Part shown: in pieces, positions 43,426 to 59,881 of the stretch
Numbering within the stretch: the stretch's first letter is position 1
How the letters are laid out: every line of letters starts with the position of its first letter
Assembly: GCF_000243075.1 (NCBI RefSeq)
Contig: NC_016745.1
Span: 1,505,001-1,569,000, forward strand
DNA length: 64,000 bases
Direction: 5' to 3'
Source of the DNA: Oceanimonas sp. GK1
GTDB taxonomy: Bacteria > Pseudomonadota > Gammaproteobacteria > Enterobacterales > Aeromonadaceae
The notes under the pieces: model-generated
The model's input: the letters and a program-made list of their open reading frames with translations, nothing else
Database searches by the model: none
Told to the model about the DNA's origin: nothing
Position numbers and translations under genes: made by a program

Positions 43426-46074
43426 GTGCCCGGTCGTCATTTTTCGATATCCATGCTCGCAACCGTAATTCAACAGGCCATTATTTTGCTGGCCATGGGC
43501 TGGGCGCTGTCGCTCAATGTGCGCAAGGGCTGGCATAACCCCCGGCTGATGATCCTGACGTCCGGTTTCTGGTTCGGGCTGGCGACCACGGTCTGCATGA
43601 TCCAGCCCCTGACCGTGGCGCCCGGCGTTTTGCTGGATGCCCGTAACGGCGTCATGTTTGTGGCCGGGCTGTTTGCCGGCCCGCTGTCCGGTGCCCTGGC
43701 GGCCCTGATGGCCGGGGGCTTTCGGCTCTGGATCGGTGGGGACGGCGCCATCACCGGCCTCATTAATCTCTGGCTGGCGCTGTTGCTTGGCCTGGGCTTT
43801 CGCCATTGCGTGACCCAAGGCTGGCTGCAAATCCGGATCCGACACCTGTTGCCGGTGGTGTTGCTGCTTCATGCCGGTACCCTTGTTGTGGTGACGCTGC
43901 TGATGGGGCCGGAGAGCCGGCTGCTGCTGCCGGTGCACCTCTGGCCTTTTCTGGCGGTGATGGTGCCACTGACCCTGATGCTGACACATATTCTGCGGGA
44001 TGCGGAGCAGCGGCAGTGGGAGCAGGCGGCCCTGAAGGAAAGCGAGTCTCGCTTGCGGGCCATTACCGGTGCCCTGCCGGATCTGATGTTCGTGATGGAC
44101 GAGGACGGCCGTTACCTGGAGGTCATGGCTTCCCAACCCTCCCTGCTGTATCCCGTGGACGACAGCGTGATCGGCAAGCGGGTGGACGAGTTGTTCAAGG
44201 CCGAACAGGCCGAGATGTTCGTGAACTTCATTCGCGAAACCCTGACGCGGACGCACCCCCACCGCCTGGTGTATGAGCTGGAGACCTTTGAGGGCCGGCG
44301 GATTTTTGAAAGCCAGGCCCAGGCCATGGACGCTCCCCTGGATCACCGGCGCGCCGTGGTGGTGCTCACTCGGGATATCACCCAGCGGGTGCGCAATGAA
44401 ACCGAGCTGCGAATTGCGGCGGTGGCCTTTGAAAGTTTTGAAGGCATGCTGGTGACCGATGCCCAGAACCGAATCTTGCGGGTCAACCGGGCCTTTACCG
44501 ACATTACCGGCTATACCGCCGACGAGGTGATGGGTTACACCCCGGCCCTGTTCAGCTCCGGCCAGCACGGCCCCGAGTTTTACCGGCAAATGTGGCAATG
44601 CATCAACGAGCAGGGGCACTGGCAGGGGGAAATCTGCAACAAGCGCAAATCCGGCCAGGTATACCCCCAGTGGTTGTCGATCAGCGCGGTGCGCGACGAA
44701 CAGGGCACCGTCAGTCATTATGTGGCCTCCATTACCGACATTACCCAGCGCAAGAAGGATGCAGAGCGCATCAATCACCTGGCGTTTTATGATGGGGTGA
44801 CCGGCCTGCCCAACCGCCGCTCTCTCAATGAACGTATTCGGCAGCATCAGGACGACCGTCACGGCGCCGGGCTGGTGTTTATCGATCTCGACAACTTCAA
44901 GGACATCAACGACCTCTGGGGCCTGGCGGTGGGAGATCAGCTGTTGCTGCAGGCGGCCCAGCGGCTGAACAAGTCGCTGCGGGAGCAGGACATGGTGGCG
45001 CGGCTGGGGGGGGACGAGTTTGTGGTGCTGTTGACCGGCCTGCCACGGGATCGCAACCGCGCTGCCGCCCTGCTGGAGCAAACCGGCCATCGCTTGCTGG
45101 CGTTGCTGGAGCAGCCGTATGTGCACGAGAATCATATGTTGCGCTGCAGCGCCAGCATGGGAGTGGTGTTGCTGGAAAACAGCGAGCTGGCGCCCGATGA
45201 GCTGGTGCAGCAGGCGGAGCTGGCCATGTATGACGCCAAGCGCGGCGGCAAGGGCAAGCTGCGGTTCTTCGATCCTCGCATGCAGGAAGTGGTGGCGCAG
45301 CGACTGCGCCTGGAAGAGGACATTTTACGCGGCCTGGAAGCCGAGGAATTCAGGGCGCATTTTCAGCCCCAGTTCGACTTTCAGGGGCACATGATCGGCG
45401 CCGAAGCCCTGGTGCGCTGGTACCATCCCGAGCGGGGCGTGCTGGCGCCCGGCGCCTTTATTGCCGTGGCCGATGAAGCCGGCCTGATGAACCGCATCGA
45501 TCGCATGGTGCTGACCCAGTCCTGCCGGCAAATGGCGGCCTGGGCGCGGCTGCCGGCGTTTCGCGATTTTACCCTGTCGGTCAACATCAGTGCCGCCCGG
45601 CTGTATCAGGCGGAATTTATTGAAGACGTGCTGGCCATTTTTGAGCAGACCGGGGTCAGTCCGACGGCGATCAAGCTGGAAATTACCGAATCCATGCTGC
45701 TGGATGACATGCCCACCGCCATTGCCCGCATGCAGACCCTGAAAGCCCACGGTGTCCGCTTTGCCATTGATGATTTTGGTACCGGCTATTCCTCCCTGCT
45801 GTATCTGCAGCAGTTACCCTTGGATCAGCTCAAGATCGATCAGTCTTTTGTGCGCGCCCTGCCTGCCGATGAAAACAGCCTGAGTATCATTCAGGCCATC
45901 GTCGCCATGGCCCACAGCCTGAAGCTGGAAGTGATCGCGGAAGGGGTGGAAACCGAGGCCCAGCGCCAGTTGCTGCATCAGCACGGCTGCCACCACTATC
46001 AGGGGTACCTGCTGTCCCGTCCCGAGCCCGCCGAGGTGGTGGAGGCCATGCTGGCCGAGCGCCTCTGCTCTTAA
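43426..46074 (+). CDS. Membrane PAS-GGDEF-EAL cyclic di-GMP enzyme
   Basis: The 882-aa protein starts with a 5TM-LYT-type membrane sensor (about residues 10-190, with GVMFVAGLFAGPLSGALAALMAGGFRLW in the core). Two PAS domains (about 205-320 and 330-450), a GGDEF domain (LGGDEFVVLL near residue 528) and an EAL domain follow. The EAL part has EALVRW (near 658), SVNISA, EITESML, DDFGTGYSS, KIDQSF and AEGVET, so all catalytic residues seem present. It may switch between synthesis and hydrolysis of c-di-GMP. The GTG start has GGAGG nine bases upstream; ATG 43453 is an alternative. Its stop overlaps that of the next gene. Confidence 0.9.
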   Translation: MPGRHFSISMLATVIQQAIILLAMGWALSLNVRKGWHNPRLMILTSGFWFGLATTVCMIQPLTVAPGVLLDARNGVMFVAGLFAGPLSGALAALMAGGFRLWIGGDGAITGLINLWLALLLGLGFRHCVTQGWLQIRIRHLLPVVLLLHAGTLVVVTLLMGPESRLLLPVHLWPFLAVMVPLTLMLTHILRDAEQRQWEQAALKESESRLRAITGALPDLMFVMDEDGRYLEVMASQPSLLYPVDDSVIGKRVDELFKAEQAEMFVNFIRETLTRTHPHRLVYELETFEGRRIFESQAQAMDAPLDHRRAVVVLTRDITQRVRNETELRIAAVAFESFEGMLVTDAQNRILRVNRAFTDITGYTADEVMGYTPALFSSGQHGPEFYRQMWQCINEQGHWQGEICNKRKSGQVYPQWLSISAVRDEQGTVSHYVASITDITQRKKDAERINHLAFYDGVTGLPNRRSLNERIRQHQDDRHGAGLVFIDLDNFKDINDLWGLAVGDQLLLQAAQRLNKSLREQDMVARLGGDEFVVLLTGLPRDRNRAAALLEQTGHRLLALLEQPYVHENHMLRCSASMGVVLLENSELAPDELVQQAELAMYDAKRGGKGKLRFFDPRMQEVVAQRLRLEEDILRGLEAEEFRAHFQPQFDFQGHMIGAEALVRWYHPERGVLAPGAFIAVADEAGLMNRIDRMVLTQSCRQMAAWARLPAFRDFTLSVNISAARLYQAEFIEDVLAIFEQTGVSPTAIKLEITESMLLDDMPTAIARMQTLKAHGVRFAIDDFGTGYSSLLYLQQLPLDQLKIDQSFVRALPADENSLSIIQAIVAMAHSLKLEVIAEGVETEAQRQLLHQHGCHHYQGYLLSRPEPAEVVEAMLAERLCS

Positions 46075-47642
46075 AGCGTTTCGCTGAGGATCACTCGGTT
46101 GCGGCCTTCGCGTTTGGCCTGGTAGAGGGCGCGGTCGGCCTGCTTTAATACCTGGCCAATGGCCGTGCCGGTCTCGGGCCAGTGGGCAATGCCCAGAGAC
46201 AGGGTAATGTGGCCGACCCCGGTGATGGCCATGTTGGCCACGTGTCTGCGCAGGCGCTCGGCTACCTCGCGGGCGTTGTTGGCGGAGGTGGCGGGAAGAA
46301 AGATCATGAATTCCTCGCCGCCGCTGCGGCACAGGGTATCGCCCCGGCGCGCCTGCTCCTGCATCACTTTGGCCAGGGTCTGAATGACCAGATCACCGGT
46401 ATCGTGGCCGAACGTGTCATTGACCTGCTTGAAGTGGTCAATATCCAGCGCGATCACCGAAAATGGCGTCTTTTCCTGCTCATAGCTGTCCAGCACATGC
46501 TGCATGCCCCGGCGGTTGAGCAGGCCGGTGAGGGTATCGGTGTGGCTGTCGGTATGCAGCTTGTTGATGCGCTCATTGAGCAGGCCAATGCCCCGCAAAA
46601 TGGCCCGCTTGAGCTGGGCCGCCTCAAAATACCAGGAGCGTACGCCGGAAATATCGGCCTGTGCGCTTTGCTTGTTCATCAGGCCGGCGGAGGTAGCCAG
46701 CTGCCATAAGGGACGGGAGATAAACAGCGCCGACAACCAGATCCCTGCCAGGGTCAGCAGCCCTACGGGAAGGCTTTTCAGCACCACGCTCAGCAGATGT
46801 TCGTTTATGCCCGCCAGAGTAGCGGCCTTGGGTCGTTGTACCACTATGCCCCAGCCGGTGCTGGCCACCGGCGCAAAACCGGCGAGCATGTCGATGCCTT
46901 GGGAGTTGACCACGTGATGGGCATATTCCCGGCCCTGGAGCACTTCCTCGATGGCGTTGTTCCCGCTGATGCGTTCGCCGATACGGGTGGCCTCCGGGTG
47001 GTAAATCAGGGTCTGGTGACGGTCAACCACATACAGGTAGGAGCCGTCCTGGTAGTAGTGTTTGCCGAGCAGCTCTCCCAGAATGTTGCTTTGTTGCAGA
47101 TAGATGGTGCCGGCGATATAGCCGAGATAGTCGCCGTTGGCGGCAAACACCGGATGGGAGAGGCTGACGATATAGTTGCCGGACGGAGACACAAAGGGAT
47201 CGGTGATCAGGGGCTTTTTCGCCTCCAACGACTGCCGGGCACGGGTGGAGGTAAGCTTGAATCCCTTCATGTTCAGGGTATCGGGGGAGGTGGCCAGGAC
47301 CACGCCGGCGGCGTTGACCACCACCACGGAGTTGAAGGTATTGCTCTGTGCATGCAGCCGCCGGGCCTCCGCCATCAGCGCCGGTTCGTCAGCCATTTTC
47401 GTGACCAGTTCAGTGGCACTGTAAGCCAGTTGCTGACGGGTGGACTGAATAAAGCTCTCGGTCATTTCCGCCAGCTTGGCCGCGTACACCCGGTTGGCTT
47501 CCAGGGTGTTGTTGATAAGCAGGGTGCGCTGTACCTCGTAGGTGGCATAGAAGCTGTTGCACAGGGTGATCACCACGCTGAAGATGGCCATGGCCAGCAT
47601 CAGGTTGCGAAGGTTGAGCCGGGGCAGCGGGCTGGATGACAT
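46071..47642 (-). CDS. Diguanylate cyclase with periplasmic Cache-type sensor
   Basis: The 523-aa protein has an N-terminal membrane helix (LMLAMAIFSVVITLCNSFYA), a periplasmic double-Cache-like domain (about residues 45-280, with ITDPFVSPSGNYIVSLSHPV), a second membrane helix, and a C-terminal GGDEF domain. The active loop is RSGGEEFMIFLP near residue 440, with the RRGD inhibitory site five residues before it, so it should be active and feedback-inhibited. I chose the Met at 47642 (MSSSPLPRLNLRN); an upstream extension to 47726 does not look like a signal anchor. It is convergent with the GGDEF-EAL gene. Confidence 0.9.
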   Translation of the reverse strand: MSSSPLPRLNLRNLMLAMAIFSVVITLCNSFYATYEVQRTLLINNTLEANRVYAAKLAEMTESFIQSTRQQLAYSATELVTKMADEPALMAEARRLHAQSNTFNSVVVVNAAGVVLATSPDTLNMKGFKLTSTRARQSLEAKKPLITDPFVSPSGNYIVSLSHPVFAANGDYLGYIAGTIYLQQSNILGELLGKHYYQDGSYLYVVDRHQTLIYHPEATRIGERISGNNAIEEVLQGREYAHHVVNSQGIDMLAGFAPVASTGWGIVVQRPKAATLAGINEHLLSVVLKSLPVGLLTLAGIWLSALFISRPLWQLATSAGLMNKQSAQADISGVRSWYFEAAQLKRAILRGIGLLNERINKLHTDSHTDTLTGLLNRRGMQHVLDSYEQEKTPFSVIALDIDHFKQVNDTFGHDTGDLVIQTLAKVMQEQARRGDTLCRSGGEEFMIFLPATSANNAREVAERLRRHVANMAITGVGHITLSLGIAHWPETGTAIGQVLKQADRALYQAKREGRNRVILSETL

Positions 47643-47743
47643 GAATACAGAACCTGGAAACGGGGGAGTGGTGTGCCTGATGGCAAATTGTTCGTAATAG
47701 TAATGAAATTTAACCGCCATGACCACCGCCCGGGCCGGCCGCG

Positions 47744-48673
47744 TCAGACTGAAGTTGCCGTGTTATCAAACACATCCCAGCGGGGCGGGTCGCCGAAGTA
47801 GCCGTCGATAAAGTCAAGAAAACAGGTGACCTTGCTGGCCTGCAGTTTGCGATGGGCATAGACCGCATACAGCCCCATGGGAGCCGGTTCGTACTCAGGC
47901 AGCAGGATCTGCAACCGGCCGTCGGCGATGGCCTCACCGGCGATAAAGGTGGGCTGAATGGTGATGCCGGCGCCGGCAATGGCGGCCTTTACCAGCATCT
48001 CTCCGTTGTTGCTGATCAAGCTTCCGCTCTGTTCCCGCCCTTCGGCCTCGAGCCATTCATGTAATTGCGGCAGGCTGGCACCGTCTTCCATGTAGTGATA
48101 GCGCAGATAGCGGTGCCCCTTCAGATCTGCCGGTTGGCGGGGGGTACCGTGGCGGGCCAGGTAGGCGGGGGAAGCGCACACCACCAGCCGGACGGGGGCA
48201 ATGCGCCGGGCGATAAGCGACGAGCTTTTCAGGTGGCCAATACGCAGGGCGATATCAAAGCCTTCTTCCACGATGTCCACCTTGCGGTCGTTCAGTTGCA
48301 GGTCAACCCCCACGGCCGGAAACGCACCTTGAAAATCGCACAAGAGCGGGGCCAGGTGCAGGGTAGCAAAAGAGACCGGCGCACTGATGCGTAATTGCCC
48401 CTGTGCACTTTGCTGCAGGTTACCCAGCTGGTTTTCCATGTCGTCGATATCATCCAGGATCTGCTGGGCATGCTGCACAAAGCGCGTGCCGGCTTCGGTC
48501 AGGTGCACTCTGCGGGTGGTGCGGTTGAGCAGGCGCACGCCCAGCCGCTCTTCCAGCCGGGACACCTGTTTGCTGATCTGTTGGGGGGAGGTGTTCAACC
48601 GCCGGGCGGCGTGGGTAAAACCGCCTTCGGTGGTGACGGCAACAAAGGCACGCATGGCGTCGATACGATCCAT
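47744..48673 (-). CDS. LysR-family transcriptional regulator
   Basis: The 309-aa regulator has the N-terminal winged helix (MDRIDAMRAFVAVTTEGGFT then LNTSPQQISKQVSRLEERLG) and a LysR effector domain. I chose the Met at 48673, standard for the family; the longer frame to 48733 runs through the palindrome. It is divergent from doxX/DODA and is the likely regulator of that pair and itself. The ligand is unknown; such pairs often respond to quinones or aromatics. Confidence 0.9.
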   Translation of the reverse strand: MDRIDAMRAFVAVTTEGGFTHAARRLNTSPQQISKQVSRLEERLGVRLLNRTTRRVHLTEAGTRFVQHAQQILDDIDDMENQLGNLQQSAQGQLRISAPVSFATLHLAPLLCDFQGAFPAVGVDLQLNDRKVDIVEEGFDIALRIGHLKSSSLIARRIAPVRLVVCASPAYLARHGTPRQPADLKGHRYLRYHYMEDGASLPQLHEWLEAEGREQSGSLISNNGEMLVKAAIAGAGITIQPTFIAGEAIADGRLQILLPEYEPAPMGLYAVYAHRKLQASKVTCFLDFIDGYFGDPPRWDVFDNTATSV

Positions 48674-48703
48674 AGCAGGGCTCCGCAAAAGTGACAGAAT
48701 TAT

Positions 48704-48726
48704 ATTATCAACAATACGTTGATAAT
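48704..48726. promoter_or_regulatory. LysR-type operator (9-5-9 palindrome)
   Basis: Perfect arms ATTATCAAC and GTTGATAAT flank AATAC, in the divergent region 30 bp upstream of the LysR start. It contains the T-N11-A pattern expected for LysR regulators. Confidence 0.75.
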
Positions 48727-48835
48727 TACTCAATGAAGTCGCTGTTTTTGTTTTTATTCGATGAGATTAAGCTGGTTTCACTTTCCGGCAAGGCAACCGG
48801 TTCCACGCATCACATCGATTTACGAGGGCAATATC

Positions 48836-49303
48836 ATGGCTTCACAATTTGTACGTAACCTGCTTGATTCCAACGGTGGTTATGCCGCCCTGGCGCTGCG
48901 CCTGCCAGTGGGCGCCATCCTGGCGGCCCATGGCGCCCAGAAACTGTTCGGCTGGTTTGGCGGCTACGGACTGGACGGCACCGGCCAGTGGATGGCCAGC
49001 ATTGGCCTGGCGCCGGGCTACCTGATGGCGCTGCTGGCCGGCAGTGCCGAATTCTTTGGCGGCCTGGCGCTGGTGTTGGGGCTGCTGACCCGTCCGGCGG
49101 CCCTGGTGTCGGCCTTTACCATGCTGGTGGCCATCTTCAGTGTTCACATTGGCAACGGCCTGTTCATGTCGAACAACGGTTACGAATATGCGCTCGCGCT
49201 CTTTGCCGCCACCCTGGCCCTGGGCATTCAGGGGGCCGGCCACTTCTCCCTGGACCAGCGCCTGCAGGCGACCCTGGGCAAGGTCCGGAGTTCCGCAGCC
49301 TGA
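48836..49303 (+). CDS. DoxX family membrane protein
   Basis: The 155-aa protein has four hydrophobic helices, with LRLPVGAILAAHGAQKLFGWFGG near the N terminus and AGSAEFFGGLALVLGLLTRPAA in the middle, typical of DoxX/YphA. The start at 48836 is preceded by GAGGGC. Related proteins are quinone-linked membrane redox subunits; the activity here is unknown. It is cotranscribed with the dioxygenase 53 bp downstream and divergent from LysR. Confidence 0.88.
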   Translation: MASQFVRNLLDSNGGYAALALRLPVGAILAAHGAQKLFGWFGGYGLDGTGQWMASIGLAPGYLMALLAGSAEFFGGLALVLGLLTRPAALVSAFTMLVAIFSVHIGNGLFMSNNGYEYALALFAATLALGIQGAGHFSLDQRLQATLGKVRSSAA

Positions 49304-49356
49304 GGCCGGCCCTCCGGCCTGCCATGATGACTGTATCTATCCTGGGAGAAACCAGC

Positions 49357-50169
49357 ATGAGCAAGACGACTGATATTCTTTTTATTTCCCATGGCGGTGG
49401 CCCCATGCCGCTGCTGGGAGACCCGGATCATCAGGAAATGGTGAATACCCTGCAGGCCCTGGCCGGCAAACTGGAAAGGCCGTCGGCCATTCTGGTGATC
49501 AGCGCCCACTGGGAGGCCCGGGTGCCGACCGTCACCTCCGGGGCCACCCCTGGCCTGATCTACGATTATTACGGTTTTCCGCCCGAGTCCTATTCCATCC
49601 GTTATCCCTGTCCTGGCGAGCCAGCACTGGCACACCGGATTTGTCAGGCATTGCAGGAGGCCGGCATTCCGGCCAGCGAGGACGAGCAACGGGGTTATGA
49701 CCATGGTCTCTTTGTGCCCCTCAAGCTGATGTATCCGGAGGCGGACATTCCCTGTGTGCAGTTGTCACTGGTGGACAGTCTCGATGCCAGAACCCATGTT
49801 GCCATTGGCCGGGCCTTGCGGTCACTGGACGAGGATAACCTGCTGGTGATCGGATCCGGCTTTTCGTTTCACAATATGCGCGCGTTTTTTGCGCCGGAAA
49901 CACCGGAGATCCGTGCCAGTAACCTGGCCTTTGAAGACTGGCTGGAAGACACCTGCTCAAATCAGAACATGGACGAAAGCGAGCGCTGCCGCCGTCTGAT
50001 TGACTGGGAACAGGCTCCCCATGCCCGCTTTTGCCATCCCCGGGAGGAGCACCTGTTGCCGCTGCATGTCTGTTATGGCCTGGCCGGCAAGGCCAGCGAC
50101 GAGCATCTTTCCGCCACCATACTGCGAAAGCGCTCGGGCATGTTTTACTGGCAGAGAAAAATGGATTGA
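49357..50169 (+). CDS. DODA-type extradiol ring-opening dioxygenase (YgiD-like)
   Basis: The 270-aa class III extradiol dioxygenase is like E. coli YgiD (4,5-DOPA dioxygenase). Candidate metal/acid-base histidines are H12 (FISHGGGP), H51 (SAHWE), H116 (RGYDHGLFVPL) and the REEHLLPLHV pair. It would cleave catechol-type substrates with Zn or Fe. GGGAGA lies nine bases before the ATG. Partnered with doxX under the LysR gene, it may form a detoxification unit for aromatic or quinone compounds (inference). Confidence 0.87.
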   Translation: MSKTTDILFISHGGGPMPLLGDPDHQEMVNTLQALAGKLERPSAILVISAHWEARVPTVTSGATPGLIYDYYGFPPESYSIRYPCPGEPALAHRICQALQEAGIPASEDEQRGYDHGLFVPLKLMYPEADIPCVQLSLVDSLDARTHVAIGRALRSLDEDNLLVIGSGFSFHNMRAFFAPETPEIRASNLAFEDWLEDTCSNQNMDESERCRRLIDWEQAPHARFCHPREEHLLPLHVCYGLAGKASDEHLSATILRKRSGMFYWQRKMD

Positions 50170-50186
50170 GGTGGGAGGAAAAACAG

Positions 50187-50210
50187 CCCTTAAATGCGTT
50201 TCAGGTATGA
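50187..50210 (+). repeat. Direct repeat flanking the accessory island, left copy
   Basis: A 24-bp sequence CCCTTAAATGCGTTTCAGGTATGA begins 17 bp after the dioxygenase stop. Its partner at 57557-57580 is identical at 22 of 24 positions, with TGCGTTTCAGGTATGA exact. Between them lie the toxin pair and hsdRMS. Possible attachment site remnant. Confidence 0.7.
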
Positions 50211-50376
50211 AGGTGCGTAACAAAGGCACTCTATCATCAAAATCTGGGTCACAGTAAAGGGGCCTGGCACTGTGGCTGCTATGCTTGGCTTATGGTCGCA
50301 CTGGCGTATAATGTGTGGCTCAGTAAACAGGTAAATTACATGATTTTTTAACCTGTTGATTATTAAGAGGTTTGTT

Positions 50377-50940
50377 GTGATAGAGATACTGACCGCTGCG
50401 AGTCTCTCGCTATGCTTAACCGGCATCAAACAGGATGCCCACCAGCTGATCAAGGTGGGTAATCGGGTTGTGGGTGCGGCAGATTCTTCCATGCAGACAG
50501 CCTCACCCGCAGTGTCTGCTCAGCAGGCGCTGGCCGATGACGTCGTTAACGCCGCCGGCGCCCTTCAATCAAACCTTTCTGTGCTGGCTGCAAGAGTAGC
50601 TGATATGGACGATATAGATGAGTCCGAACTTGATGCCGCACTCAAGCTGGTGTCCAGCGCTGCTTTGCAGTTTGCCGGCCAGGTTGAATACATACAGACC
50701 GAGCTGGAGCTAAACGCCTCTCCTGAGGCGAGCATGGCGGATACGACCGTGCTGAACTCGATTATAAGAGTGCGTAATCAGTTTGAAGACCTCTATGTGG
50801 TGCTCAAACAATTCAGGGAAGATGACCCTTTAGAGTCTGGCGCATTTTTTGCCAGCAAAGACCAGGCGTTGGCGGTGTCTGTAAAAGGGTTGATGGCCTT
50901 GGGCTTGAGTGGCGATGAAGCCAGAGAGCTGGTCCACTAA
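50377..50940 (+). CDS. Unknown protein paired with YafO toxin, candidate antitoxin
   Basis: The 187-aa protein was not recognised. It is acidic and Ala-rich, starts with a hydrophobic stretch (IEILTAASLSLCLTG), has an Ala/Asp-rich middle likely to be helical, and ends with SIIRVRNQFEDLYVVLKQ and a LMALGLSGDEARELV helix. The GTG start at 50377 has AAGAGG seven bases before it. The toxin ATG starts five bases after its stop, so the two are translationally coupled. It does not resemble the Phd-like YafN antitoxin (about 97 aa). Antitoxin role is inferred from position only. Confidence 0.6.
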   Translation: MIEILTAASLSLCLTGIKQDAHQLIKVGNRVVGAADSSMQTASPAVSAQQALADDVVNAAGALQSNLSVLAARVADMDDIDESELDAALKLVSSAALQFAGQVEYIQTELELNASPEASMADTTVLNSIIRVRNQFEDLYVVLKQFREDDPLESGAFFASKDQALAVSVKGLMALGLSGDEARELVH

Positions 50941-50945
50941 GCTGC

Positions 50946-51362
50946 ATGTCTGCCAGCATTGTTTTGCCTTCTGTTGAACTGCACGTTTCCCTGATTGAAG
51001 CGCTTGGCCAGGAAGAAGCCGAGCGCCTGAAAAGTCTCTTTTTTGCCTACAAGGCAGATCACCGGCCAGAAACCTTTGGCAGAGACGTCCCCTTTGACTG
51101 GCCTGCTCATGTTGCCCAATCTGAACTCCGGCATATTCATCTGCTTTCCGATGAGCAGATTACGCGCTACAAACGATTGGGTATTCGCAGGCAAATTAAA
51201 CAGACCAGTGATATGTTTCTGGTTTACGTCCAGCATCTGACCCAACGACATCGCTATTTATTGATAGCTGTTATCCCCGAGCCGGCTCATGAGCGTTGTC
51301 GTCGTCAGCTGACCAGACTGCCGGGCTATGCCGATATTGCCGAAGCGTTTCATTCTTCCTGA
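50946..51362 (+). CDS. YafO-family type II toxin
   Basis: The 138-aa protein has the YafO core: TFGRDVPFDWP, ELRHIHLL, QTSDMFLVYVQ, YLLIAVIPEPAHERC and the end IAEAFHSS, which line up with E. coli YafO in the same order. YafO is a ribosome-dependent mRNA interferase that stops growth. No good Shine-Dalgarno sequence is seen; translation likely depends on the upstream gene. The pair is convergent with hsdS. Confidence 0.82.
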   Translation: MSASIVLPSVELHVSLIEALGQEEAERLKSLFFAYKADHRPETFGRDVPFDWPAHVAQSELRHIHLLSDEQITRYKRLGIRRQIKQTSDMFLVYVQHLTQRHRYLLIAVIPEPAHERCRRQLTRLPGYADIAEAFHSS

Positions 51363-51385
51363 CGATATTCAGACGCAGAGCAAGA

Positions 51386-51410
51386 AAAAGCCCCTCACTG
51401 AACGGGGCTT
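51386..51410 (-). terminator. Terminator after hsdS
   Basis: A 7-bp stem (AAGCCCC / GGGGCTT) with a 9-base loop lies between the toxin and hsdS. On the minus strand it runs into TTTTTCTTG, so it mainly serves hsdS. Confidence 0.8.
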
Positions 51411-51422
51411 GGAAGAGAGCTA

Positions 51423-53219
51423 TCAGGCCAGTGCCTGCTCAACAATGGCGTCGGTCAGATGCACCTGGGTTTGCTGTGACTGCTGGAGCTTGTGCTTAAG
51501 CTGATCGCAGAGGGCCATCAGTTCATCAACTTTTTGGCATATACTCTTCTGCTCTAAAACTGGCGCTATAGGGCAAATGAGATGAACCAGCTTACCTTGA
51601 TAGATTGCACAAACATTCGTTGTGCTTGATTTTATAGATTCCAGTAGATCTTTACCTGATGTGGATCTAAACCAGAAGTCAATGAAATAAGGTGAAATTT
51701 TTGAGAGTCTAACTCTTAATATATTATTGTTATAAATTACGTCATCTTCTGGTGAGTTATTAAAGACGCAGGTTTTACCCACAAGCTCTCTACTGTTTCT
51801 CGTGTTAAATAAAAAGTCACCCTTGGTTAGCTTGTATTTTTCTTTCTCTAGCTCACTGGCATCTACACGAGTTATATCTTTCCACTCGATGCCACCATTG
51901 TTCCCTATGTTGTTCATTTTGAAATACGCAAATTTTTGGTCTGGTGATTGCTCTGCTTTGGGTCGATCCAAACCAGTTTCTGCGCTAGTTATAATGAAAC
52001 CAAACTTGACCCACTCCCAACCTTCCGGCAGTTCAAACGGCTCTTCATCTTCACTGATTTCCGGCAGTGGCTTTTGCTTTTTGATCTTTTTCTCTTTAAC
52101 CAGTCTGTCTTTTTCTGCCGCTATACGCTTCAAGAGCACGGCGGCGGGTTCGTCGTTCGGGTTCTGGCGCACCAGCTTACCCATAACGGCCAGTTGCAGT
52201 ATGGTCTGCTTGAGGGCGTCTATGCTTTGCTCGGTGGTGAACAGGGTGTCGAAATGCCCGGCGATTCTGCCCCAATTCTGCTGCAACTCGTCGGCATCGG
52301 CGCTGTTGGGCAGGGTAGACAGCAGGGTATCGACCAGGGTGGAATGAGCCTCAATGCTGGATTCGGTCTGCTGCTCCAGCTGATCGCAGAGGGCCATTAG
52401 TTCATCGACTTTCTCGACAATGCGTTGTTGCTCCTTTAATGGCGGGAGCGGAACAACTAATGAATTAACAGCACTTGTGCTAAGTTCGACCTGCTTTGTG
52501 GATCCTGATACAAGAGACTTTTCATCAGTCGGCTCAATTCTTTTTTGAACTGAATGCGAGGAAATGTAAGTGTTTAAGAACAGGCTGCTAGTAAGAAGTG
52601 GCCGGATTACAGTGACGTGAGAGTCTGCAACCAGAGAGTTTGGCTTTATGTTAGATAATACGTTGATTCTTCCTACAGTTCCCGTTCCTGTAGAATTCCA
52701 CAGAAGATCTTTCTCCTGTAAGAATCTTTCCGGTTGGTATTTGTCTAAGCTACTATCGCTAATATAGCGAGCAGGCTCAATATCAAACCCTTTCCATTGA
52801 ACACATTTTTGTGAAATGACTCTAACCTGGCCACTATCAGAATAGTTTGGCCCTTTTCCTCGTTGGACGTAACTGGTTATGGTTTGTAGATGTGTCCACT
52901 CCCACCCTTCAGGCAGCTCAAAAGGCTTTTCCTCATCACTGATAGACGGCAGTGCCTTGGACTTTTTGATTTTTCCCTGCTTAATCAGCTCGGCCTTTTC
53001 GGCGGCGATACGTTCCAGCAATACGGAGGCCGGTTCATCGTTTGGGTCTTGCGGCACCAGTTTGCCGCGCACGGCCAGCTCCAGGATTAGCTCCCGCAGC
53101 TTTTTGATGCCATACAGCTCATGCTTGTTGCTGCTGCCACGGCCGGCAGTGGATTTGGCCTGAATGGCTCCAGTCCAGGTGGCAATGTTCTCGGTGATAA
53201 GTGTTTGCGCCCGGCTCAT
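51423..53219 (-). CDS. hsdS: Type I restriction-modification specificity subunit HsdS
   Basis: The 598-aa subunit reads the DNA target. It has two target-recognition domains (about residues 110-260 and 410-560) separated by duplicated conserved regions. LAVRGKLVPQDPNDEPA and LAVMGKLVRQNPNDEPA are the two copies before each domain, and KVDELMALCDQL follows each. Both recognition domains are clearly more AT-rich than the repeats, which fits exchange by recombination. The length is like EcoAI (type IB). The start overlaps hsdM by 4 bases. The target sequence cannot be predicted. Confidence 0.94.
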   Translation of the reverse strand: MSRAQTLITENIATWTGAIQAKSTAGRGSSNKHELYGIKKLRELILELAVRGKLVPQDPNDEPASVLLERIAAEKAELIKQGKIKKSKALPSISDEEKPFELPEGWEWTHLQTITSYVQRGKGPNYSDSGQVRVISQKCVQWKGFDIEPARYISDSSLDKYQPERFLQEKDLLWNSTGTGTVGRINVLSNIKPNSLVADSHVTVIRPLLTSSLFLNTYISSHSVQKRIEPTDEKSLVSGSTKQVELSTSAVNSLVVPLPPLKEQQRIVEKVDELMALCDQLEQQTESSIEAHSTLVDTLLSTLPNSADADELQQNWGRIAGHFDTLFTTEQSIDALKQTILQLAVMGKLVRQNPNDEPAAVLLKRIAAEKDRLVKEKKIKKQKPLPEISEDEEPFELPEGWEWVKFGFIITSAETGLDRPKAEQSPDQKFAYFKMNNIGNNGGIEWKDITRVDASELEKEKYKLTKGDFLFNTRNSRELVGKTCVFNNSPEDDVIYNNNILRVRLSKISPYFIDFWFRSTSGKDLLESIKSSTTNVCAIYQGKLVHLICPIAPVLEQKSICQKVDELMALCDQLKHKLQQSQQTQVHLTDAIVEQALA

Positions 53220-54727
53220 GCGTTGCTCTCCTCGGCGTTTTTCTCGGCCACTGCTTCAGGCTCGTCGGCGTCGCTCAGCAGGGCGTTGCCCAGCACAGTT
53301 TTAAGCTGATTACGCAGCTTTTGAATGCTTTGCTGCTGCTCGGAAAAGGCGGCCAGCAGCTCGTCGGGATCGTGGCTTACTGTTTCGCCTACATGGGGGT
53401 TTTTGATGTCGAGGTTGAAGTTGCGGGCAATCACTTCATCAATGCCCACCTTCCAGGCGTACTCGTTCTCCACACGGGCGGCAAAGCCGTCAGCCTCGTT
53501 GCCCCACCAGTCGATTTCGGCCTGAAACTCCTCAAACTTCATCGGTCGGGTTTTGCTGTAGTTCTTCACACCGGCCGGGTAGGGGTGCTCGTAGAACCAG
53601 ATGTCTTTAGTGGGCTTGCCCTTGGTAAAGAACAGCAGGTTGGTCTTGATGCCGGTATAGGGGTTGAACACGCCGTTGGGCAGCCGGACTATGGTGTGCA
53701 GGTTGCATTCTTCGGTGAGCAGCTTCTTGATCTTGGTTTTTACGCCTTCGCCAAACAGGGTGCCATCGGGCAGCACCACGGCGGCCCGTCCGTTCTCGGC
53801 CAGCAGCTCGATGATCAGTTGCAGGAACAGATCGGCGGTTTCGCGGGTTTGCAGCTCGGACGGAAAGTTCTTCTCGATGCCGTGCTCTTCAGTGCCGCCA
53901 AAGGGCGGGTTGGTCACAATCACATCGATGTCGCTGTCCCAGCTCGACAGCGGCCGGTTCAGGGTGTTGTCGTGGCGGATCTGCACCGGCACTTCAATGC
54001 CATGCAGCATCATGTTGGTGGTGCACAGCAGGTGCGGCAGCTGCTTTTTCTCCACACCCAGGATCTGCTGTTGCAGCACCTGATGGTCATCGGCGTTCTT
54101 TACATAGTGGTTCTTTACATGGTCAAAGGAGCAGGCCAGAAAGCCGCCGGTGCCACAGGCCGGATCCATAATGCGCTCACCCAGCCTGGGGTCAACACGG
54201 TTAACCATAAAGCGGGTGACGGCACGGGGGGTATAGAACTCACCGGCGTTACCGGCACTTTGCAGATCGCGCAGCAGTTGCTCGTAGATGTCGCCGAACA
54301 GATGACGCTCGCTGGAGCTGGTGAAATCGATTTCGTTGAGCTTGTTGATCACCTGGCGCAGCAGGGTGCCGTTCTTCATGTAGTTGTAGGCATCGCTCAG
54401 GCCTTCGCGCACCACAAAGCCACGGGGGTTCTTGTCGATGGGGGCGGTCATGTTCTTGAGCTTAAAGAACAGCTCGTCGTTCACAAACTCCAGCAGTTCG
54501 TCACCGGTCATGCCTTCCGGGTCTGCCGCCCAGTTGCGCCACAGAAACTTTTCCGGAATGGGGGACTGATAATCGTCCAGTTCAAATTCCAGCGCCTCTT
54601 CCTGGGCGTCGAACACCTTCAGGAACAGCAGCCAGGACAATTGCCCCAGACGCTGGGCATCGCCATCCACACCGGCGTCCTGACGCATGATGTCCTGAAT
54701 GGATTTGATAATGGAGCTGATCGACAT
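53216..54727 (-). CDS. hsdM: Type I restriction-modification methyltransferase HsdM
   Basis: The 503-aa N6-adenine methyltransferase has SAM motif I as DPACGTGGFL (residues 188-197) and catalytic motif IV NPPFGG (residues 273-278). The N-terminal helical domain (MSISSIIKSIQDIMRQD) contacts HsdS. GEFYTPRAVTRFMV is the family signature before the SAM site. It protects host DNA and is part of the R2M2S1 complex. It sits 48 bp after hsdR in the order hsdR-hsdM-hsdS. Confidence 0.96.
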   Translation of the reverse strand: MSISSIIKSIQDIMRQDAGVDGDAQRLGQLSWLLFLKVFDAQEEALEFELDDYQSPIPEKFLWRNWAADPEGMTGDELLEFVNDELFFKLKNMTAPIDKNPRGFVVREGLSDAYNYMKNGTLLRQVINKLNEIDFTSSSERHLFGDIYEQLLRDLQSAGNAGEFYTPRAVTRFMVNRVDPRLGERIMDPACGTGGFLACSFDHVKNHYVKNADDHQVLQQQILGVEKKQLPHLLCTTNMMLHGIEVPVQIRHDNTLNRPLSSWDSDIDVIVTNPPFGGTEEHGIEKNFPSELQTRETADLFLQLIIELLAENGRAAVVLPDGTLFGEGVKTKIKKLLTEECNLHTIVRLPNGVFNPYTGIKTNLLFFTKGKPTKDIWFYEHPYPAGVKNYSKTRPMKFEEFQAEIDWWGNEADGFAARVENEYAWKVGIDEVIARNFNLDIKNPHVGETVSHDPDELLAAFSEQQQSIQKLRNQLKTVLGNALLSDADEPEAVAEKNAEESNA

Positions 54728-54775
54728 GATGTTTCTCTTTTTGGTATTAGGCTGTGTAAATAGGACTACGGCAAA

Positions 54776-57226
54776 TCAGGCCTGTTTTTTGGGGGCCAGC
54801 TGGTAGATTTCGGCTTCCAGCTCGCTGATGGCCTGCTGATAGTTCTGTTTGCTGCCAAAGCCCTTTTTGACGATTTCCATGGGGTTGCCGAGCCGGTCAA
54901 GGGGCTGCACCTTGAGCACATTCATGCTTTCTATTTCCTGCACACCGGCATCAGCATACTTGTCCAGCAGCGCATTCAGCACGGTTTGAGCGGTCTCGGA
55001 ATACCTGGTGAAGTAGTTGCGCTTTCTTACCTCGTTGGCCCGTTCACGACGGGTGAGCGGGGGCTGATCATAAACCACATGGCAGATGAGGTCGAAGGGA
55101 TCGAGATCCTTGCCCACTTCCTGCTCCAGCACTTCCCAGATAATGCCCTCGTTGGCCAGCTCGTCGATGATAGCCTGCTTGCGCTCGGCATCATTCCAGC
55201 GTTTGATGAAGTCGTCCAGGCTGGCAAACTGCCGGGCAAAGGTCTTGCGGGTGTAATCCTGAAAGGACTCGGTGACCAGCTTGCCGTCGGCATCGTAATA
55301 CTGCACCCGCTGGGCAATGGTCTTGACGGTCACGCCGTTAACGTGAAATTTTCTGACCCTGTGCTCGTCATCGTCGTCACCGCCCAAGGGGCCGTGGTCG
55401 CCGTCTTCGGCAGACGGAAATTCATAGTCCGCATCCGGCTCACCAATAGTCAGTCCATCCTCTCCAGTGGCGTCCAGCTCCTCCTGAGACTCACCATCAA
55501 TGATCTCATCAAGCGTCTCGTCGTCTTCATTGATTTGCTCAGGCGTTACCGTCATCACCCGCTCGGGAATGCCGTCGAAGCGCTCGTCGGCGAACAACTC
55601 GGTGGCCTTCTTGAAGTCGAGAATGGTAAACCACAGCTTGCCGTATTTATCGTTAATGCGGGTGCCGCGTCCGATGATCTGCTTGAACTTGGTCATGGAC
55701 TGAATGTTCTGATCCAGCACCACGAACTTGCAGGTCTGGGCATCCACGCCGGTGGTCATCAGCTCTGAGGTAGTGGCAATCACCGGATAGGCTTTTTTGG
55801 GGTTGATGAAGTTATCGAGCTGCGCCTTGCCCAGTTCATCATCACCGGTGATTTTCATCACATACTTGTCGTTCTTCAGCACCTGCTCAGGGTTGCAGTT
55901 CACCAGCGCCTGCCGCATGCGCTCGGCATGGTCGATGTCGTTGCAGAAGACGATGGTCTTGGCCATGGGATCGGTGCGCTTGAGGTAGTTGGTAATGGTT
56001 TCCGCCACCAGCTGGGTGCGCTCGTCGATGACCATGGTGCGGTCAAAGTCTTTCTGGTTGTAGATGCGGTCGTCAATCAGCTCGCCGCTCTTGTCGGTCT
56101 GCCCCTTAGTGGGACGCCAGCCTTGCAGGTCGATGTCGATATCAACCCGCACCACCTTGTAGGGGGCGAGAAAGCCGTCTTCAATGCCTTCCTTGAGGGA
56201 GTAGGTATAGACGGGATCGCCAAAGTAATCGGAGTTGGATACCTCGTCGGTTTCCTTGGGCGTGGCGGTCAGTCCCACCTGAGTGGCACTGCTGAAGTAT
56301 TCGAGTATTTCCCGCCAGGCGCTGTCTTCGGCGGCGCTGCCTCGGTGGCACTCGTCAATCACAATCAGGTCAAAGAAGTCGGGAGCCACCTGCTTGTAGG
56401 CTTTTTGCTGCTCTTCCGGGCCGGTTAACGCCTGATACAGCGCCAGGTGAATTTCAAAGGCGGGATCAACCTTGCGGCCTTCCACCTTGGTCATCGCAGA
56501 GCCAAAGGGCTGGAAGTCGTTGATGCGGGTCTGATCCACCAGAATGTTACGGTCAGCCAGAAACAGGATGCGCTTCTTGCTGCGCGCCTTCCACAGTCGC
56601 CAGATGATCTGAAAAGCGGTGTAGGTTTTGCCGGTGCCGGTGGCCATCACCAGCAGAATGCGCTTCTGCCCGGCAGAGATGGCTTCAATGGTCTTGTTGA
56701 TGGCCTGCAGCTGATAGTAGCGGGGCATTTTGCCACTGCCGTCATCATGATAGGGCTGGGTAATGATGGGCAGCTGCGCCTGAGTGTAGCCCTTCCAGGT
56801 GCAGTATTTGTCCCAGAGCTGAGCCGGGGTAGGGAAGTCGTCGAGGCTGATCTGGGTTTCCAGTGCCGCCGGGTTGGTTTTGTCGTGAAAGACGAAGCCG
56901 TCACCGTTGGAGGCGAACACAAACGGCACTTCCAGCAAACCGGCATAGTCCAGCGCCTGCTGCATGCCCTTGGCAATGTCGTGCTTGTTGGCCTTGGCCT
57001 CAATCACCGCCAGAGGCAGGTTGGGCTTGTGATAAAGCACAATGTCGGCGGATTTCACCTTCTTCCGCGCCGCCATCTGGCCGCGCACAATCACCTTGCC
57101 ATCGCGCAGCTTCACTTCCTGGCGGATCTGAGTCATGTCGTCCCAGCCGGCATCCTTCACCGAAGGCAGGATAAACTTGCTGATGATGTCGGTTTCAGTA
57201 AGCACTGACTTATTTATTTTTGTCAT
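54776..57226 (-). CDS. hsdR: Type I restriction-modification endonuclease/translocase HsdR
   Basis: The 816-aa subunit has an N-terminal PD-(D/E)xK nuclease (D61 in ADIVLY, E76 and K78 in IEAKAN), a SF2 motor with Walker A MATGTGKT (residues 194-201), DECH box (291-294), LTATPK, and later QIIGRGTRI motif VI. An acidic stretch is followed by the C-terminal HsdM-binding domain. Start MTKINKSV is chosen by similarity; an ATG at 57283 would add 19 residues. The set of sizes fits the EcoAI-like type IB class. Nothing looks broken. Confidence 0.95.
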
Positions 57227-57301
57227 GGCTGCGCTGTCCCGTGTCACAGTCTTTTGGCCATTCTGGCACAGGGGGAGTGCCATTTGAATTATTAGTAACC
57301 A

Positions 57302-57454
57302 GACTGCGTAGCTTACTGAGCTTACTGAGCTTACTGAATCTACATAGGCTGCTCAGCTTCAATAGTATCCGCAGGCTATTGAGTCTGTGCAGCTTGCTTA
57401 GCCTCAGCAGGCTGTGCAGGTTATTGAGGCTATGCAGCCTCCGTAGGCTAATGA
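57302..57454. repeat. 17 tandem degenerate 9-bp units upstream of hsdR
   Basis: Read on the plus strand in 9-base steps, units follow G-N-Y-T-N-N-N-N-A (for example GCTTACTGA three times in a row, GGCTATTGA, GGCTGTGCA, GGCTATGCA). T at position 4 and A at position 9 are in every unit; G at position 1 and a pyrimidine at position 3 in 16 of 17. The array starts 76 bp upstream of hsdR. Confidence 0.9.
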
Positions 57455-57556
57455 AAATCCGGTGCTTGCAGCAGGTCCGGCACAGAAAGGCAAAAGCCAC
57501 CGCCAGTCATTGAGTGCTGGAAAAATTTGAGGAAGAGATTAGAGTGAAATTACTGC

Positions 57557-57580
57557 CCCTGAAGTGCGTTTCAGGTATGA
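57557..57580 (+). repeat. Direct repeat flanking the accessory island, right copy
   Basis: CCCTGAAGTGCGTTTCAGGTATGA, 22 of 24 identical to 50187-50210 in the same orientation. It lies 114 bp from the 3' end of ssrA. Confidence 0.7.
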
Positions 57581-57658
57581 CAGTAGGTGTGACAGTAAGC
57601 GAGTTTTTGGTAGTTTTTCAGGAAGTGCTAATAAATAGATAAGTCATTGATTTAATCA

Positions 57659-57684
57659 ACAAAAAGGCCCCTTGCGGGGCCTTT
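57659..57684 (-). terminator. ssrA terminator
   Basis: A 9-bp stem (AAAGGCCCC / GGGGCCTTT) with a TTGC loop, running into TTTTT on the minus strand just after the tmRNA 3' end. Confidence 0.92.
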
Positions 57685-57693
57685 CCAATCGAT

Positions 57694-58054
57694 TGGTGGA
57701 GCTGGCGGGAGTTGAACCCGCGTCCGAAAAACCTACGTCGTCGGTACTACATGCTTAGTCAGTCATTAAATTCGCCAGCTGCTGCGGACTGACACGCCAC
57801 AGACAGACTATCCTGAATTGGTTTTAACGCTTCAACCGTCAGGCACGGCATCCACGCGATCCTGTGAAGGATGACCTTCCGATTCCCTAAGTCACAGGCA
57901 AGCTAGGGCAGAAGGGCTCTCTACAGGTTATTAAGCTGCGAGTGCGTAGTTTTCGTCGTTTGCGACTATTTTTTTGCGATTGTTTAACGAGGCCTATCGC
58001 ACCTCGGCATGCACCTTGGAGTTCGAGAATCTCGTCGAATCCTGAATCAGCCCC
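57694..58054 (-). ncRNA. ssrA: Transfer-messenger RNA (tmRNA)
   Basis: The 361-base RNA begins GGGGCTGATTCAGGATTCGACG and ends GTTCAACTCCCGCC-AGCTCCACCA with the CCA encoded, so both ends of the tRNA-like domain are present. The tag reading frame (57931-57963 on the minus strand) encodes ANDENYALAA followed by TAA, the E. coli tag, recognised by ClpXP and ClpAP. It rescues stalled ribosomes with SmpB, whose gene lies just upstream on the same strand. 3' ends of ssrA are frequent integration sites; the accessory island begins just beyond it. Confidence 0.98.
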
Positions 58055-58067
58055 AAGCTGTAAACTG

Positions 58068-58096
58068 ATCTTATTTCAAACAATGCTGAAATACAA
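58068..58096 (-). promoter_or_regulatory. Probable ssrA promoter
   Basis: On the minus strand TTGTAT, 17 bases, TAAGAT; 13 bases then lead to the mature 5' end, allowing a short 5' leader removed by RNase P. Confidence 0.55.
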
Positions 58097-58104
58097 GCCC
58101 TAAC

Positions 58105-58590
58105 TCAGCGGCCCTTGTGTTTCATCATGCGCGCTTTTTCCCGCTGCCAGTCTCGTTCCTTCACGTCCTGACGCTTGTCGTGGGCTTTCTTGCCCTTTAC
58201 CAGGCCGATCTCGGCCTTGACCCAGGACTTGGACCAGTACAGGGACAGCGGCACCAGGGTGTAGCCTTCCCGTTCGATAAGGCCAGTGAGCCGGTCCAGC
58301 TGACGCTTGTGCAGCAGCAACTTGCGGGTACGCAAGGGATCACAGACCACATGGGTAGAGGCCATGTTGAGCGGGGTAATGGTGGCGGCAAACAGAAAGG
58401 CCTCACCGTTTCGCATGAACACGTAAGCCTCGCCGATGTTGACCTTGCCGGCCCGCAGCGATTTGACTTCCCATCCTTGCAACTCGACACCGGCTTCGAA
58501 TTTTTCCTCAATGGAGTATTCGTGCCGTGCCTTGCGGTTAACGGCAATGGTGTTGGAGCCGGATTTCTTTTGGGTTTTGTTTTTTGCCAT
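58105..58590 (-). CDS. smpB: SsrA-binding protein SmpB
   Basis: The 161-aa protein binds the tRNA-like domain of tmRNA and the ribosome decoding centre. It has the OB-fold core ([39 protein letters not shown]) and the basic C-terminal tail [21 protein letters not shown]. The Met at 58590 gives the E. coli length (160 aa); the in-frame extension to 58662 is not conserved. It lies 50 bp upstream of ssrA on the same strand. Confidence 0.97.
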
Positions 58591-58727
58591 AGTGGCCGCA
58601 GTATACGGTGTCCTTTGGTGCTTGGGAATTGGTGAGCAGACGACCGACGGCTTTTTGAGCAATAGTGGAGGGTGAGCCTGGGTCCCATAAGTGTTAAAAT
58701 CGGCCGGTCAGAATGCCAGGAGAGGTT

Positions 58728-59177
58728 ATGCCGAGTATTACCCGAAGCGCGCTGGTGATGTTCAGTGCCAAGCAGATGTATGAGCTGGTCAACAATGTAG
58801 ACGACTATCCCCAGTTTTTACCGGGTTGCGTGGCCAGCCGTGTGGTTGATAAGAGCGAAAACAGCATTACTGCGGCGCTGGAGGTGGCCAAGGCCGGCAT
58901 TCGCAAGACGTTTACCACCCGCAACCGCCTTGAGCAGGATCACAAGATCAACATGGAACTGGTGGACGGTCCCTTCAAGTCGCTGAATGGTGGCTGGACC
59001 TTTATTCCCCTTGATGAGGACGCCTGCAAGGTCGAGCTGAAGCTGCACTTCGAGTTCAAGTCACGACTGGTAGAGCTGGCCTTTGGCGGTATCTTCAAGG
59101 AGCTCACCAACGCCATGGTGCATGCCTTCAGTGAACGGGCCCGGGAGGTGTACGGCAGTGAATCTTATTCAGGTTGA
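58728..59177 (+). CDS. ratA: RatA family START-domain protein
   Basis: The 149-aa protein matches RatA/YfjG, a polyketide-cyclase/START-fold protein related to coenzyme Q-binding Coq10. It has SALVMFSAKQMYELVNNVDDYPQFLPG (start of the fold, two parts), LVDGPFKSLNGGWTF and the amphipathic C-terminal helix FKELTNAMVHAFSERA. E. coli RatA was described as blocking 70S formation; a CoQ role is also likely. The Met at 58728 matches the family start. It is divergent from smpB and overlaps rnfH. Confidence 0.93.
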   Translation: MPSITRSALVMFSAKQMYELVNNVDDYPQFLPGCVASRVVDKSENSITAALEVAKAGIRKTFTTRNRLEQDHKINMELVDGPFKSLNGGWTFIPLDEDACKVELKLHFEFKSRLVELAFGGIFKELTNAMVHAFSERAREVYGSESYSG

Positions 59178-59499
59178 AGTGGTGTACGCCCTGCCGGCGA
59201 AACAGACGGTGCTGACCCTGCGGGTGGCCCCCGATGCCTGCGTACGGGAGATCATTGAGCAGTCCGGCATTTTGCGTCAGTTTCCCGAGATTGACCTGGA
59301 GCAGAATGCCGTCGGTATTTTCAGTCGCCAGGTCAAGCTTGATCAGACGGTCTTCGACGGAGACCGTATTGAGATCTACCGTCCGCTGCTGGCGGATCCC
59401 AAGGAGATTCGCCGGCGCCGGGCCGAGCAGGCCAAGGAAGAGGGGCGGGCCGACAAGGTGACCGGCGGCCGGCCCGATCCCAAACGCACTCGCCAATAA
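59158..59499 (+). CDS. rnfH: RnfH family protein (RatB, UPF0125)
   Basis: The 113-aa protein has a ubiquitin-like beta-grasp fold: VEVVYALPAKQTVLTLRV, ILRQFPEIDLEQNAVGIFSR and GDRIEIYRPLLADPKEIRRRRAEQ (split here). The GTG start at 59158 gives the family N terminus VNLIQVEVVYA and overlaps ratA by 20 bases. The tail is charged and disordered. Function is unknown; named after its occurrence in some rnf operons. Confidence 0.92.
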   Translation: MNLIQVEVVYALPAKQTVLTLRVAPDACVREIIEQSGILRQFPEIDLEQNAVGIFSRQVKLDQTVFDGDRIEIYRPLLADPKEIRRRRAEQAKEEGRADKVTGGRPDPKRTRQ

Positions 59500-59506
59500 G
59501 CCAATA

Positions 59507-59533
59507 AAAAGCGGAGCTCCCGGCTCCGCTTTT
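59507..59533. terminator. Bidirectional terminator between rnfH and bamE
   Basis: An 11-bp stem (AAAAGCGGAGC / GCTCCGCTTTT) with loop TCCCG lies between convergent genes. Confidence 0.92.
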
Positions 59534-59542
59534 ATGTTGTGC

Positions 59543-59881
59543 TCAAAGTCCCTGGTAAAACGCCTCGGGAACCTCAAAATCACCGCCAAGGGAGGTCAGG
59601 CTGTCGTTGGTAAAGTCCAGCACCAGACGCTTTTGCTCCAGCTCGCCCCGGCCCGGTTTGAAATAATAGAGATACACCCAGCGGTCGTGGTTGAAGCCAT
59701 CCTGACTCATGGGGTTTCCGAGCAGGTAACGCACCTGCTCCCGGGTCATGCCCTGGCGAAGCTGGGCCACCTGCTTTTCTTCAAGGTAGTTGCCCTGGGG
59801 AATATCCACCTTGTACACCAGGTTGCAGCCGGCCAGGGGCAGTGCCAGAAAAAGGGATAAAAACAAGCTTTTGAGTTGCAT
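59543..59881 (-). CDS. bamE: Outer-membrane assembly lipoprotein BamE
   Basis: The 112-aa lipoprotein of the BAM complex helps fold outer-membrane beta-barrels. It has a signal peptide with lipobox LAGC (lipid on C19), KVDIPQGNYLEEKQVAQLRQG, and the SmpA/OmlA core MTREQVRYLLGNPMSQDGF and RWVYLYYFKPG. Length matches E. coli BamE (113 aa). It is divergent from udp; the 163-bp gap between holds no gene. Confidence 0.96.
   Translation of the reverse strand: MQLKSLFLSLFLALPLAGCNLVYKVDIPQGNYLEEKQVAQLRQGMTREQVRYLLGNPMSQDGFNHDRWVYLYYFKPGRGELEQKRLVLDFTNDSLTSLGGDFEVPEAFYQGL

Follow-up and report, generated by a model that had tools for sequence, protein, structure and literature searches.

Results

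A coupled gene pair and its leader

The window, that is, the whole 64,000-nucleotide stretch of Oceanimonas sp. GK1 analysed here (NC_016745.1), carries a gene of the YafO toxin family directly preceded by a second gene, hereafter the partner gene. The pair and its leader comprise the following elements.

50285..50312, forward strand: sigma-70-like promoter TTGGCT-16-TATAAT, agreeing with the consensus at 10 of 12 positions
50326..50357, no strand: leader inverted repeat with imperfect arms, AACAGGTAAA/TTAACCTGTT, possible operator
50365..50370, forward strand: ribosome-binding site AAGAGG of the partner gene, recognised from the sequence
50377..50940, forward strand: partner gene (candidate antitoxin; 187 aa, acidic, predicted all-helical), open reading frame with GTG start
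50386..50427, forward strand: hydrophobic, uncharged stretch ILTAASLSLCLTGI at the N-terminus of the partner (residues 4-17), from a rule-based test
50946..51362, forward strand: YafO-family toxin gene (138 aa; candidate ribosome-dependent mRNA interferase), ATG start, from Pfam and NCBIfam

The partner gene ends with TAA at 50938-50940 and the toxin gene starts with ATG at 50946, which leaves a gap of 5 bases; AAGAGG ends 6 nt 5' of the partner GTG at 50377, and inspection of the sequence ahead of ATG 50946 revealed no clear ribosome-binding site for the toxin gene. A preliminary description of this DNA had placed two reading frames here, 5 bases apart and the first with the better ribosome-binding site, and the sequence confirms this. 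A start of the partner at TTG 50356, giving a protein with a positive N-terminus (MIIKRFVV...), was judged less likely because the position of AAGAGG suits GTG 50377 well. This ribosome-binding site and the promoter are both identical in Zobellella denitrificans (L011), the promoter being found once where 1.0 occurrence would be expected by chance. The inverted repeat differs in L011 in its loop and in one arm base, and it could be only a weak candidate operator because of this difference in one arm. Relative to Z. denitrificans, the partner gene has accumulated 21 synonymous and 5 non-synonymous changes (dN/dS 0.068) and the toxin gene 5 and 2 (dN/dS 0.122); both are therefore real protein genes under purifying selection. 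A search of Rfam over 49000-60000 gave no structured RNA besides tmRNA.

Genomic setting

The toxin gene converges on a complete hsdRMS type I restriction locus, the surroundings being organised as follows.

50195..50210, forward strand: left copy of the 16-bp direct repeat TGCGTTTCAGGTATGA, which brackets the pair and hsdSMR
51389..51409, reverse strand: likely hsdS terminator (stem, then T run) in the 60-bp gap between the convergent genes, from the sequence
51423..53219, reverse strand: hsdS, type I restriction specificity subunit (Pfam Methylase_S, E 2.5e-19), convergent with the toxin gene
53216..54727, reverse strand: hsdM (Pfam N6_Mtase, E 4.2e-91, and HsdM_N)
54776..57283, reverse strand: hsdR (Pfam ResIII, EcoEI_R_C and HSDR_N)
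57565..57580, forward strand: right copy of the 16-bp direct repeat TGCGTTTCAGGTATGA, which adjoins ssrA

Across 50-58 kb, the G+C content drops from about 60% to 45-55%. The 3.5-Mb genome contains the 16-bp repeat exactly twice. It was considered as a classical att site and rejected: the right copy has ancestral flanks on both sides in genome G409 (L114), and because it keeps both of them the repeat is not a simple attachment duplication. In G423 and G427, the diguanylate-cyclase-like gene (46071-47726 in the window) adjoins ssrA (57694-58054 in the window), and therefore about 9.9 kb (47727-57658) is extra in the window. This segment contains a LysR-DoxX-LigB dioxygenase cassette in addition to the toxin pair and the restriction genes; in G419 that dioxygenase cassette is found about 37 kb away from ssrA. 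The pair, or a remnant of it, also adjoins hsdS in G410 and G427, elsewhere on the chromosome, with ssrA about 80 kb and 450 kb away. Since hsdS adjacency is thus found at different chromosomal places, the pair and the restriction genes seem to move together. On two Klebsiella plasmids, a YafO pair is located downstream of a type I hsdR (L022:1-1059, L027:1-537).

Two of the 23 genomes of the genus contain the window pair, namely the window's own and that of a second species, where the same pair has 97-99% identity; the pair thus co-occurs elsewhere. In G427, what is left of the partner gene is frameshifted, consists of two short pieces with 55-68% identity and lies beside hsdS (L105:9570-9681, minus strand), and no toxin gene was detectable at this locus. 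The loss of the toxin together with a frameshifted partner is what decay of a toxin-antitoxin locus would be expected to leave.

The YafO-family toxin

The assignment of the 138-aa protein to the YafO family, made earlier from its motifs, is borne out by a match to Pfam YafO_toxin PF13957 over residues 35-136 (E 2.6e-33; 114.6 bits, cut-off 25). Its match to the NCBIfam equivalog of K-12 YafO (E 4.8e-16) falls under that model's strict cut-off. All 8 columns that are invariant among 15 aligned YafO relatives are retained, as F32, G45, D47, H65, L92, Y94, H115 and A132. YafO of E. coli cuts translated mRNA, is ribosome-dependent and toxic, and is relieved by YafN (PMC2814082). Relatives of the toxin were recovered from 618 plasmids, 16 phage records and 53 IMG/VR contigs; scans of viral contigs with the window toxin alone as query gave none.

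An acidic, predicted helical partner distinct from YafN

The partner has a pI of 4.3, with 27 D+E vs 12 K+R, and gave no significant match in Pfam, NCBIfam, PADLOC, PHROG or PDB, in agreement with its initial portrayal as an acidic 187-aa protein of no nameable family. The best Pfam match, MethyTransf_Reg, was rejected as lying below the cut-off (E 0.027). Equally upheld is the statement that the coupled upstream gene is not of the YafN/Phd type: no match to PhdYeFM was obtained in Pfam at E up to 10, and the protein has 187 aa vs 97 aa for YafN. The further suggestion of an antitoxin plus an extra domain is not supported, the partner being devoid of any detectable known antitoxin domain. Family searches likewise yielded no recognisable DNA-binding domain in it. 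Such a domain is found in most type II antitoxins.

The AlphaFold model of the partner (mean pLDDT 59) predicts helices at 7-38, 46-74, 82-113, 121-146, 161-173 and 179-186, and that of a phage partner, built from a 12-sequence alignment (mean pLDDT 73), at 6-28, 44-74, 77-110, 116-146 and 159-175. In these models of low-to-moderate pLDDT (59 and 73), the order of the helices is the same and their positions are nearly so. The PDB structures matched by the two models are the same generic helical bundles; the VIA-align matches to MukF, syntaxin/Sso, STAT and FlgN (Z 9-13) were set aside as falling in the range that the tool gives for unrelated helical bundles, and Foldseek with the two models returned nothing with E under 0.001. 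The shared bundle matches and helix order are compatible with a common fold of the window and phage partners, which is short of proof.

Long partners are usual upstream of mobile-element YafO genes

In E. coli K-12 and at the chromosomal loci L006, L008 and L010, the gene upstream of yafO encodes a Phd-like YafN of about 100 aa. Phage, prophage and phage-plasmid YafO loci with upstream sequence present have a coupled partner of 158-216 aa, represented by 37 distinct sequences, and its spacing from the toxin gene ranges from a 10 nt overlap to a 16 nt gap in 36 of the 37, the remaining one being a decayed locus with 77. With its 187 aa and its gap of 5 nt, the window pair fits this layout (158-216 aa; -10 to 16). 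The long phage and plasmid partners match no Pfam family; they fall in PHROG 8416, 22162 and 13546, whose function is not annotated, or in none, with bridging matches between 8416 and 22162 (E 1.8e-5) and toward the plasmid-type partner (E 0.0036). Homologues of two long-partner types were found in 258 and 317 plasmids, together close to the about 570-618 plasmids that bear YafO and thus accounting for nearly all of them; of 40 sampled matches to the first plasmid type, 36 have an annotated YafO neighbour. Of 5426 complete E. coli genomes, 49 have one particular long partner and 48 have the complete pair. In Aeromonadaceae and others, YafO partners of a third kind were also observed, in the form of very short upstream open reading frames of 53-81 aa that belong to no family (L009, L012, L014, L015, L091, L099; for instance L009:1152-1331, L014:1179-1358, L015:1109-1354 and L012:4596-4820), some of which overlap the toxin start by 14 nt.

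The preliminary description had proposed the pair as a candidate for an undescribed system. This does not hold in the sense of something unique to the window: long non-YafN partners are usual upstream of phage and plasmid YafO genes and are partly gathered in PHROG, a phage GenBank record already says antitoxin, and a survey of E. coli had already counted 13 partner clusters for YafO, of which 8% are known and which are mostly novel (PMC10790755). The literature searched yielded no experiments on the long YafO partners, prophage papers mentioning the toxin only.

Partner type follows the toxin clade

A tree of 51 toxins was labelled by partner type. Toxins partnered by YafN cluster in a single group (support 90/82; recovered in 90% of the bootstrap trees), and 36 of the 37 long-partner toxins, the window toxin included, lie across a branch supported 91/91 from that group, in a tree whose deep branches are long and of only moderate support. 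The partner labels require 4 changes on this tree vs a mean of 13.3 after shuffling. Partner type thus tracks the toxin clade, and the partner is therefore part of the module and not a chance neighbour.

Relationship of the window partner to phage and plasmid partners

The window partner has no significant match in PHROG, and none to 8416, 22162 or 13546. Alignment by hhalign with other YafO partners remained non-significant (E 0.059-0.47), and 229 of 2000 shuffles scored as high as the window partner against a full-length HMM of the phage and plasmid partners. Searches with the window partner by tblastn of plasmids and phages, and by a scan of viral contigs, retrieved no relatives. The C-terminal third of the phage and plasmid partners contains a two-block motif, I-x-K-A-R...L...Q, then S...GL..LA..G. 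On this motif, the window partner outscores every unrelated open reading frame among the 552 tested and is equalled by 15 of 3000 shuffles, the only sequences above it being those used for training and two further YafO partners outside the training set; since the blocks were chosen after the sequences had been inspected, this result is only suggestive. Homology of the window partner to the phage and plasmid partners is thus no more than suggested. As the profile searches were not significant, the two are likened by their position, their length, the order of their helices and a weak motif near the C-terminus.

A conserved, often signal-like N-terminus

The N-termini were assessed with a rule-based test, not SignalP, which asks for first residues that are neutral or positive, a hydrophobic stretch free of charges and a small-x-small site. 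A signal-peptide-like start was found in about 12 of 18 partner clusters (under 60% identity) vs 0 of 11 control proteins, the clear cases including L095, L100, L079 and L033. The window partner, read from its best start, has the hydrophobic stretch without positive N-terminal residues or a small-x-small site, and partners of the L025 type have no signal-like N-terminus. When subfamilies are taken singly, the initial block of about 28 residues ranks as the most conserved or among the most conserved (identity 0.94, 0.91 and 0.73), and a hypervariable linker follows it (L034, L057, L062, L065, L081-L085, L025-L032). An overlapping DNA element was rejected as the cause: synonymous conservation in the block, evaluated in one subfamily, is 0.60 vs 0.29-0.47, and as this excess at synonymous sites is only mild, the conservation is mainly at the protein level. 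Generic signal peptides drift fast, so that the block probably has a specific role, be it toxin binding, membrane anchoring or export control. At a decayed Enterobacter plasmid locus (L018:1900-3060), an IS3 OrfA-type helix-turn-helix (PF01527, E 5.6e-14) has been joined in frame to the front part of a partner that is then truncated; the N-termini of L019/L020-type partners resemble the zipper segment of OrfA.

Discussion

We propose that the pair is a type II-like toxin-antitoxin module whose antitoxin is a helical protein other than YafN, and that it travels with a type I restriction system, a reading to which we give a probability of roughly 0.72. Position and linkage support the upstream partner as a non-canonical candidate antitoxin. 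For the window pair, we infer toxicity, neutralisation, binding and regulation along the following lines. By analogy with E. coli YafO, the toxin would cut mRNA on translating ribosomes. Having the better ribosome-binding site, the partner would be translated first and the toxin would follow through coupled re-initiation, leaving the partner in excess; the partner would bind the toxin and keep it inactive. Should the partner be lost or destroyed, whether through loss of the module or through shut-off of host protein synthesis, the toxin would be freed. By its layout, the module would belong to a broad YafO class in which helical partners of about 160-215 aa replace the Phd-like YafN. Against the toxin-antitoxin reading stand the non-significant sequence relationship of the window partner to the other partners, its missing DNA-binding domain and the presence of the window pair in only two or three genomes. 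The signal-peptide-like N-termini of many partners are likewise odd for a protein that has to meet a cytosolic toxin.

The window pair shares with E. coli yafNO (PMC2814082) the Pfam family of the toxin, a tightly coupled upstream gene in the antitoxin position and a promoter of its own. It differs in that its partner, with 187 aa, is acidic, helical and not Phd/YefM-like, in that its toxin lies outside the YafN-partnered clade, and in that it adjoins a type I restriction locus and has no dinB/SOS context. Because antitoxin family and toxin clade both fail, the window module is not a member of yafNO. The closer resemblance in layout is to modules of phages and phage-plasmids that combine a PHROG 1651 toxin with PHROG 8416, 22162 or 13546, such as those of HK639, PhiR40_1, YMC11/02/R656 and the IncFIB 110-kb plasmids. 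Gene order, spacing, partner length, predicted helix order, the hydrophobic N-terminus and the weak C-terminal motif are alike, and the pairs of K. quasipneumoniae and K. pneumoniae plasmids are also near a type I restriction gene. The window copy, however, is chromosomal, and its partner, whose homology is not significant by profile, has an insertion of 8-12 residues before the C-terminal motif and a non-classical N-terminus. On the preferred reading, the window module would work like yafNO and belong, by layout, to an unnamed widespread class.

In PhiR40_1 (PV340560.1), the gene of the long partner has the same layout and is labelled 'YafM antitoxin' by the depositors, a label that stands by itself. 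E. coli YafM is a REP-associated transposase, and the name is probably a misnomer for that reason. An antitoxin with a hydrophobic export-like segment would resemble, in idea, TAC modules, which involve SecB-like chaperones; we do not propose membership, as the window pair has no adjacent SecB-like gene and its hydrophobic segment is N-terminal, not C-terminal.

The N-terminus leads to another conceivable reading, in which the partner would be an antitoxin that acts via the membrane or export, its hydrophobic N-terminus serving as signal or anchor, so that the toxin would be held at the membrane or the module would sense the state of export or of the envelope, for example during phage infection. 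This is consistent with signal-like N-termini in about two thirds of the partner clusters and in none of the controls, and with a strongly conserved front followed by a variable linker. We nevertheless regard it as rather unlikely, given that the window partner itself has neither the positive start nor the small-x-small site, that L025-type partners have no signal-like N-terminus, that the test was rule-based and that true export would part the antitoxin from its toxin. The broader proposition that most YafO toxins of mobile elements, the window's included, are controlled by a new antitoxin superfamily whose export-signal-like N-terminus couples toxin release to membrane targeting or export seems to us speculative and unlikely.

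It could also be surmised that the partner is not an antitoxin and is a co-transcribed gene, concerned with exclusion or regulation, the toxin being controlled by something else, such as an RNA or an unlinked protein. A partner unrelated in sequence to YafN, with neither a DNA-binding nor a known antitoxin domain and with relatives bearing signal-like N-termini, would suit such a scenario. It is made improbable by the exclusive coupled linkage across very diverged toxins and by purifying selection; moreover, the gap of 5 bases is too small for another gene, and tmRNA is the only Rfam match in the region. That the toxin is inactive and the pair a conserved or decaying remnant without toxin-antitoxin function is very improbable, since dN/dS is 0.12 for the toxin and 0.07 for the partner, the frames are intact and the family-invariant residues are kept, even if the pair is rare in the genus and a decayed copy exists in G427.

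YafO is treated as paired with YafN, yet the usual partners of copies carried by phages or plasmids, among them many clinical plasmids of Klebsiella and Enterobacter, are long proteins. If these long partners are antitoxins, then hundreds of YafO copies have an antidote that toxin-antitoxin catalogues overlook, and the partners would constitute a broad antitoxin group with a conserved N-terminal module.
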